A stretch of DNA of 64,000 nucleotides from Rhodoferax ferrireducens (GTDB taxonomy: Bacteria; Pseudomonadota; Gammaproteobacteria; Burkholderiales; Burkholderiaceae_C). Shown here in pieces: positions 62,143 through 64,000 of this stretch. The DNA is taken from positions 607,662 to 671,661 of the forward strand of contig MTEI01000002.1 in the NCBI GenBank assembly GCA_002083775.1, given 5' to 3'. The notes beneath the pieces were generated by a model. The model did no database searches and was not told where the DNA came from. It saw only the letters and a list, made by a program, of their open reading frames with translations. The stretch's first letter is position 1; every line of letters starts with the position of its first letter. The translations under genes and the position numbers were made by a program.

Positions 62143-62195
62143 TGGATAGCTATTAGCCCTTTATCTATAAGGGCTAGAGGCCAATAATCTATATA
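62143..62195 (+). repeat. Dispersed palindromic repeat family A
   Basis: GGATAGCTATTAGCCCTTTATCTATAAGGGCTAGAGGCCAATAATCTATATAA. Confidence 0.92.
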
Positions 62196-62811
62196 ACTTT
62201 GATCTGCCGCCAGGCGGGCGGTGGGGTTGCCGTTCTCCGGCTTGCTCGCGGGTGAAGGCTTGGGTTTTCCTATTGGCGTGTTTCGCTGCCAGCCTTGGCG
62301 CGCGAACTGTCACGCCACGCGAATGAGGCCTGCGCCCGACAACCCCACCACCCGCCTTCTACATGTTTGGATGCGTTGTTGGGTGTCAGGTTCAGGCTGA
62401 TTGCGGGTGCACACGACAGTCTGCTTTCTGGCGGTCCAGTCCGGCCTCCGTTCGACGCGGTTCATTAACTTCGCCAGCTTGCCCACTGCCATCCTTTACA
62501 GATGTGCCTAGGGGTCGTAAAGCAGTGGCACGGAAATTTAATAGCCCTCATTTGAATAACAGACGCCATGCTTGTCCGCATAGTTCTTTAGCGAATGCAA
62601 TATGTACATTTGAAAGGTGGCTGTAGTCCACTCTACGCAAATGAGGCGATGGTTAAGGTCTAGCGCGAAAACCTCCTTTCATGTTGAGACCGTGCTCCGC
62701 TTTGAGGTTGGCGACTTGGTTGCAAAGAAGCGCCAATTGAAAGCCTAGAATACTAGGACAGCACCAGAAAAAATGACGATTGACATACGGACGTAAAGGG
62801 AGAATTTTGAA

Positions 62812-63855
62812 ATGGAAAAACTAATTAGTTTAAATGAGTTGTTTAAATCTTTTGAAAAGGAATCGCAAGAATTTCCTCTTCTAGATGTATTTCAAAAATT
62901 TAATGCAACCAACTATTCGGGTTCAATGAAGTACACAATGACTTCGCCTGAATTGATTCGCCGCTGGTCATTTGGTGAAATAAAGCGCTCAGAGTTAATA
63001 AACATTGAAACTGAAGAGCCTTTGCGCGATGGGTTGTTTTGCTCCAGAATATTTGGACCAACAAAAAATTATCAATGTCTTTGTGGAAAATATCAGGGCT
63101 TAAAGAACCGTGGCGTCATTTGTGAAAAATGTGATGTTGAAGTAAATCGTTCTAGTTTACGCGGTGAGCGAATGGCTCATATCGAGCTTGTCGTGCCCTG
63201 TGCCAATATATGGTTTGTCAAAGTTCTTCCAAGCTTTTTAGGTCTCGTACTCGATATGACGTTAAGTGATATTGAGCTTGTATTGTATTTTGAAGCTTAT
63301 ATCGTTACCGACCCTGGTGTTACACCTATAAAGAAATATAGTATCTTGAGCGAAGATGATTTCGATGACTTGATTGCACAATACGGCAATAAATTCAAGG
63401 CAAAAATGGGCGCGGAAGCTGTTAAGGATTTGTTGCAAAATATCGATATTGAATATGAAATTCAGCGCTCCAGCAGAGTTACCGGGTCGGAAAATATAAA
63501 TAGAAAAAATGTCAAGCGCTTATTGGCATTTGAAATGTTTAAAAAGAATAACATTAAACCCGAGTGGATGATGCTTGATGCGTTACCTGTAATTGCACCA
63601 GACTTGCGCCCGCTTGGCCCACTTATTGAAGGCCAATTTGAAGCTTCCGACTTTAATCAGCAGTATCGACAAATTATCACCTTAAATAATCGCCTGAAAA
63701 AAATTATTAAACTACAGGCCCCTTCAATAATTCTTGCCCAGCTAAAACTTCAGCTGCAAGAAGCGGTGGACTGTTTACTAGACAACAAGCGTTCTCGCAA
63801 AGTAATGATTGGAGTCAACAAGAATCCTCTTAGGTCGCTTGCCAGCTTGAATTAG
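62812..63855 (+). CDS. Stand-alone RpoC (RNAP beta') N-terminal clamp/zinc-ribbon paralog, 347 aa
   Basis: RRWSFGEIKRSE; RDGLFCSRIFGPTKNYQCLCGKYQGLKNRGVICEKCDVEV; PEWMMLDALPVIAPDLRPLGPL; LQEAVDCLLDNKR; RBS AAAGGGAG; stops before switch 2 and the catalytic NADFDGD. Confidence 0.92.
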   Translation: MEKLISLNELFKSFEKESQEFPLLDVFQKFNATNYSGSMKYTMTSPELIRRWSFGEIKRSELINIETEEPLRDGLFCSRIFGPTKNYQCLCGKYQGLKNRGVICEKCDVEVNRSSLRGERMAHIELVVPCANIWFVKVLPSFLGLVLDMTLSDIELVLYFEAYIVTDPGVTPIKKYSILSEDDFDDLIAQYGNKFKAKMGAEAVKDLLQNIDIEYEIQRSSRVTGSENINRKNVKRLLAFEMFKKNNIKPEWMMLDALPVIAPDLRPLGPLIEGQFEASDFNQQYRQIITLNNRLKKIIKLQAPSIILAQLKLQLQEAVDCLLDNKRSRKVMIGVNKNPLRSLASLN

Positions 63856-64000
63856 CCGACTTAATGACAAGTTCAAGGTGGGCTATTTGTACTTTCGTGT
63901 GGCCACTTCCGCTGCACAACTGACGTCAGTGTCAGACTGATTGCCGTCATTTGAGCTGGCCATGTATTTTTAGGAGCTCGTCCTTGATGCCTCGGTCAAC

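Follow-up and report, generated by a model that had tools for sequence, protein, structure and literature searches.

A free-standing, strongly diverged gene for the N-terminal quarter of the RNA polymerase β' subunit in Rhodoferax ferrireducens

The genome of Rhodoferax ferrireducens carries, in addition to an ordinary rpoC, a free-standing gene (RpoC-N) that encodes the N-terminal quarter of the RNA polymerase β' subunit and ends ahead of all catalytic elements. It lies close to the end of the 64,000-nucleotide stretch analysed here ("the window") and is known to us from the sequence of this one genome, in which its homology to β', its origin in the rpoC of its own bacterial family and the selection that has acted on it can all be read. 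To our knowledge, core subunits of RNA polymerase almost never occur as free fragments.

The gene, its domains and its limits

The features of the region are listed below; the domain boundaries, as well as the role of the lid, are those we take to apply from general knowledge of RNA polymerase.

62410–62811, no strand assigned: AT-richer upstream stretch, which follows the end of homology to the nearest relative
62795–62802, plus strand: Shine-Dalgarno-like AAAGGGAG, read from the sequence, 9 nt 5' of the ATG
62812–63855, plus strand: free-standing RpoC-N gene, with zipper, zinc ribbon, clamp, lid, clamp helices and the start of the rudder
62812–62874, plus strand: N-terminal extension (codons 1–21, about 20 residues) with no counterpart in RpoC
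63076–63135, plus strand: zinc ribbon, with all four zinc cysteines kept (C70, C72, C85 and C88 in E. coli)
63652–63786, plus strand: clamp-helix coiled coil (E. coli 265–309), assigned from residue comparison and contacts in the literature
63910–64000, no strand assigned: 91-bp repeat that recurs without mismatch at the end of another contig (C16); the assembly breaks in multi-copy sequence

The open reading frame is intact from ATG to TAG (347 codons, 347 aa), and the preliminary description was right in calling it complete, with its own start codon and Shine-Dalgarno sequence. Residues 40–344 match the Pfam domain PF04997 (Rpb1 domain 1; E 6e-49, 167 bits against a cut-off of 39.7), residues 39–345 match positions 2–311 of the 1147 in the rpoC model TIGR02386 (E 2e-110), and residues 29–345 match β' chains of solved structure (E 5e-107). 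The scores for whole proteins are far from being reached, either for TIGR02386 (370 bits against 963.5) or for TIGR02387, the model of the cyanobacterial γ subunit RpoC1 (270.6 bits against 975.9). The alignment with E. coli β' extends to about residue 330, short of switch 2, and no β'-like sequence follows the stop codon, so that the protein has neither NADFDGD nor the bridge helix nor the trigger loop. These matches agree with the earlier claims that homology to β' runs up to a point before switch 2 and that the protein cannot be catalytic; the "N-terminal third" of the earlier account is in size one quarter. Promoter and terminator scans of the RpoC-N strand and an Rfam search gave no match, and a structure prediction made from four sequences reached a pLDDT of 34.

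RpoC-N shares with the N-terminal quarter of bacterial RpoC (TIGR02386) the order of domains, the four zinc cysteines and, within its own family, 58–60% identity, but it is a free-standing protein of 347 aa encoded outside the rpoBC operon, with no active site, with 20 extra N-terminal residues and with alterations in normally invariant contacts to sigma, DNA and the hybrid. A natural split of β' is known in cyanobacteria, whose γ subunit begins with the same domains; γ, however, is a subunit essential to the enzyme, is partnered by RpoC2 and, at about 620 aa, takes in the active-site region. Proteins of Rhizobium phages (genomes of about 150–207 kb) also contain the domain found in RpoC-N, but they are only about 30% identical to it and are annotated as β' of a phage RNA polymerase. 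Since RpoC-N ends just ahead of switch 2, a possible split point, it might be imagined to replace the normal β' N-terminus in the assembled RNA polymerase; this is very improbable, as no separate gene for the remainder of β' is seen, the intact rpoC being the sole other match to the RpoC-N part, and the contacts to hybrid and DNA are altered.

Descent from rpoC and the search for relatives

The ordinary, intact rpoC (1404 aa, NADFDGD present) is located on another contig of the same genome, and its product is 60% identical to RpoC-N across their common part. The family (400 genomes), the order (70) and the class (276) were sampled, and among the matches listed RpoC of the own family comes closest (58–60%), followed by other families of the order (at most 56%) and the class (at most 55%). 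Trees place RpoC-N at or within the RpoC of its own family, a position that can be given no more precisely because its branch far exceeds that of any RpoC (7 to 10 changes per column, where RpoC end branches have a median of 0.05–0.07). At 16 of 31 family-diagnostic sites it carries the family residue. Judged by these comparisons, the source of RpoC-N was evidently an rpoC within its own bacterial family, in keeping with the betaproteobacterial descent proposed earlier. Its composition is strikingly AT-rich (38% GC against 59% for the window; GC3 of 0.37 against 0.75 for the own rpoC), and it has probably been a long-term resident of an AT-rich mobile element.

The independent homologs anticipated in the preliminary description were not found in searches of the genus, family, order and class or of phages, plasmids and viral contigs. 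No further free-standing RpoC-N was detected in 90 genomes of the genus (61 at normal sensitivity, 90 at a strict threshold) or, among the matches listed, in 400 genomes of the family, nearly all of which have one match, while those with two are mostly fragmented assemblies. The same holds, again among the matches listed, for 276 genomes of the class, nearly all with a single match, and for the order, of which 70 genomes were searched at normal sensitivity and 399 under a strict cut-off that leaves copies more distant than RpoC itself undetected. A pattern scan covering 84,980 genomes and three scans of viral contigs brought up no relative, the patterns being able to detect close relatives only, and phages and plasmids searched in translation yielded no second free-standing gene. 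The literature searched contains no mention of one.

Several candidates proved to be of a different nature. Short rpoC pieces in nine genomes are fragments at contig ends, and that in a tenth is a frameshifted full-length rpoC. Phage and plasmid records with RpoC contain an annotated full rpoC, are unannotated, or are probably pieces of chromosomes. Among them, fifteen small records filed as plasmids, from Shewanella, Serratia, Salmonella, Pseudomonas, Legionella, Bacillus and Clostridioides, carry rpoC, some together with rpoB, and are probably chromosomal.

Selection on the reading frame and the genomic surroundings

RpoC-N differs from the own rpoC at 0.31, 0.24 and 0.62 of the first, second and third codon positions, respectively, the third positions being near saturation. 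We simulated neutral drift from the own RpoC, with third bases preset to resemble those of RpoC-N, until the divergence at first and second positions matched that observed; a mean of 10.3 stop codons accumulated and none of 2000 runs remained free of stops. Runs matched by amino-acid identity gave a mean of 7.6 stops, with none of 500 stop-free. RpoC-N has no stop, which means that selection has held its frame open through most of its history, as judged from one sequence, and the earlier claim of selection rather than decay stands. Substitutions are also less severe than single-base changes at random (mean BLOSUM62 of –0.06 against –0.52), a comparison that is rough in the presence of multi-step changes.

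These results bear on the possibility that RpoC-N is a relic now drifting: what a rearrangement or an insertion sequence left of the 5' end when it cut a duplicated rpoC, or a longer and divergent β' gene from a plasmid or phage. Its place at a contig end beside a multi-copy repeat, its status as a singleton in the genomes searched and the alteration of a third of the sites invariant in RpoC all speak for such an origin. Against it stand the lack of any stop codon or frameshift at 40% divergence, the intact zinc site, a distribution of changes unlike that of decay, and a stop codon no more than two codons from where homology ends, for which the chance is about one in ten by our own estimate. 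We therefore consider a relic rather unlikely, although a variant of it, in which a long-selected gene was cut very recently, may apply.

The contig ends exactly at the end of the window, 145 bp past the stop codon, and because it does so within a repeat, the 3' neighbourhood and any partner gene cannot be read. On the 5' side, purM and the repeat that follows it are collinear with the nearest relative up to 62409, where the two genomes diverge; the segment 62405–62820 has no match in 391 genomes of the family, and the upstream stretch likewise has no match in plasmids. The loss of collinearity and the unmatched segment together indicate that the DNA around RpoC-N was inserted or rearranged. 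The far boundary of the insertion was not located, as the genes that follow in the nearest relative have their counterparts (65% identity) elsewhere in the genome. A misjoin of the assembly ahead of the insert is unlikely, because the other copies of the repeat in the genome are at most 84% identical to it and the repeat is native to purM in the relative G005.

This repeat (62206–62400) is a dispersed element of 195 bp with inverted arms of 30 nt (62212–62241 and 62328–62357); copies about 70–84% identical are present on three contigs of the genome (C1, C9 and, in three copies, C3) and in the relatives G005 and G031, and it has no match in Rfam. It is preceded at 62146–62200 by a short repeat of intergenic type (ATAGCTATTAGCCCTTTATCTATAAGGGCTAGAGGCC) with more than 30 copies genome-wide. 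The 91-bp repeat at the contig end has no match in the genus outside this genome (89 genomes searched); its reverse strand reads VDRGIKDELLKIHGQLK followed by a stop codon and may be the tail of a transposase or another repeated gene. Beside its other copy lies a gene (L024:13672–15144) for a protein of 490 aa, in which a part resembling phospholipase D, with weak matches to DrmC and DpdK, is joined to a J-domain-like C-terminus; it adjoins a 378-aa protein built of repeated LPWSIDLIExY-type units.

Altered surfaces and a possible role of RpoC-N

Among 115 positions strictly invariant in about 50 RpoC sequences, 37 differ in RpoC-N, with charged or polar residues affected more often (23 of 53) than hydrophobic ones (14 of 62; p 0.027). 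The usual pattern of conservation is inverted. Identity between RpoC-N and the own RpoC, compared with that between the own RpoC and E. coli β', is as expected or higher in the usually variable clamp base (0.76 against 0.69) and insert (0.58 against 0.54), whereas the zipper (0.56 against 0.85), the lid (0.64 against 0.93), the clamp helices (0.50 against 0.83) and the rudder, usually among the most conserved parts, are the most altered. In the zipper Y46 and R47 are lost (R47E), R47 being a residue that touches the promoter spacer (PMC10216364); the lid carries R259Q, and the clamp helices R275L, E295L and M298Q, together with changes of the neighbouring R293, N294 and R297. By alignment, then, residues that face sigma, promoter DNA and the hybrid are lost, while the zinc site and the clamp base are kept.

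The stretch encoded by RpoC-N is nearly the same as in two engineered fragments, β' 1–314 of E. coli (Young 2004) and RpoC-N 32–347 of Burkholderia pseudomallei (PMC4057154), which are laboratory constructs with a wild-type sigma-binding face and not, like RpoC-N, a natural diverged gene. According to the passage of PMC4057154 that cites Young 2004, β' 1–314 together with sigma suffices to melt an extended –10 promoter, which shows, by analogy, that such a stretch can fold and act alone. As RpoC-N spans exactly this module and retains R278, I291 and A302, it might bind sigma, lowering or redirecting transcription in the host, possibly in the service of a mobile element. R275Q, E295K and A302D have, however, been reported to impair formation of the E. 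coli holoenzyme (PMC8321222), and two of these three residues, R275 and E295, are leucine in RpoC-N; with M298, R293, N294, R297 and the zipper R47 altered as well, a sigma sink seems quite unlikely.

R270, R278 and R281 of β' have been named as contacts of NusG (PMC12364105), and RfaH, which binds the clamp-helix tip in competition with sigma, requires I290 and I291 (PMC2871177). RpoC-N keeps R270, R278, I290 and I291, with the change R281K. The separation of a lost sigma face from a kept NusG face is only partial, because R278, R281 and I291 also contact sigma (PMC10216364), so that the pattern is suggestive but not clean. It argues against simple binding of sigma or promoter, and a titrator of NusG/RfaH-type factors or of phage proteins would fit it better; the roles put forward in the preliminary description are nevertheless conjectures. 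Alternatively, the clamp fold may have been reused apart from transcription factors, e.g. as a scaffold for nucleic acids or proteins. The disappearance of polymerase-specific surfaces and a branch length far above that of any RpoC are consistent with reuse; it is nonetheless doubtful in view of the retained clamp-helix tip and zinc ribbon, and of a protein with no additional domain.

Given that catalysis is absent and the contacts to sigma and promoter are lost, while the zinc site, the clamp base and the clamp-helix tip are kept, we tentatively propose, as the best explanation of RpoC-N, that it titrates a clamp-binding factor or diverts it as a decoy, and that it is probably of mobile origin. 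This stand-alone, non-catalytic β' fragment was copied from an rpoC within the bacterial family and has long diverged away from polymerase work, probably on the AT-rich element. The protein would fold alone, and its partner would be a protein with a grip on the clamp helices or on the N-terminus of β', for instance a member of the NusG class or an RNA polymerase inhibitor from a phage; once bound, this partner would be kept off the real polymerase; the missing sigma face would spare the cell's own initiation from poisoning. As to the N-terminus, the extension contains LNELFKSF, similar to LLDLFKQF at the N-terminus of β' (permutation p 0.012 for a motif picked post hoc). The β' residues 1–10 are the target of the P7 protein of phage Xp10 (PMC3985653), and the extension as a P7-type target site may be taken as a lead only. 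What speaks against a titrant is that RpoC-N is a single orphan in one genome. It also has no match among the known anti-phage defence models of PADLOC, a library that may not hold such a kind.

More specific roles, in which RpoC-N would be a decoy that diverts attacks on RNA polymerase by proteins of phages or mobile elements, or an element's mimic that captures NusG-class factors of the host, are to be regarded as unlikely on present evidence. If true, such a decoy or mimic would be a transcription regulator or an immunity protein of a new kind, and we know of none described before. A clamp module that has diverged under selection would amount to a separation-of-function mutant made by nature, in the very surface contested by sigma, NusG, RfaH and phage regulators, and RpoC-N may represent a new means to guard or hijack transcription.
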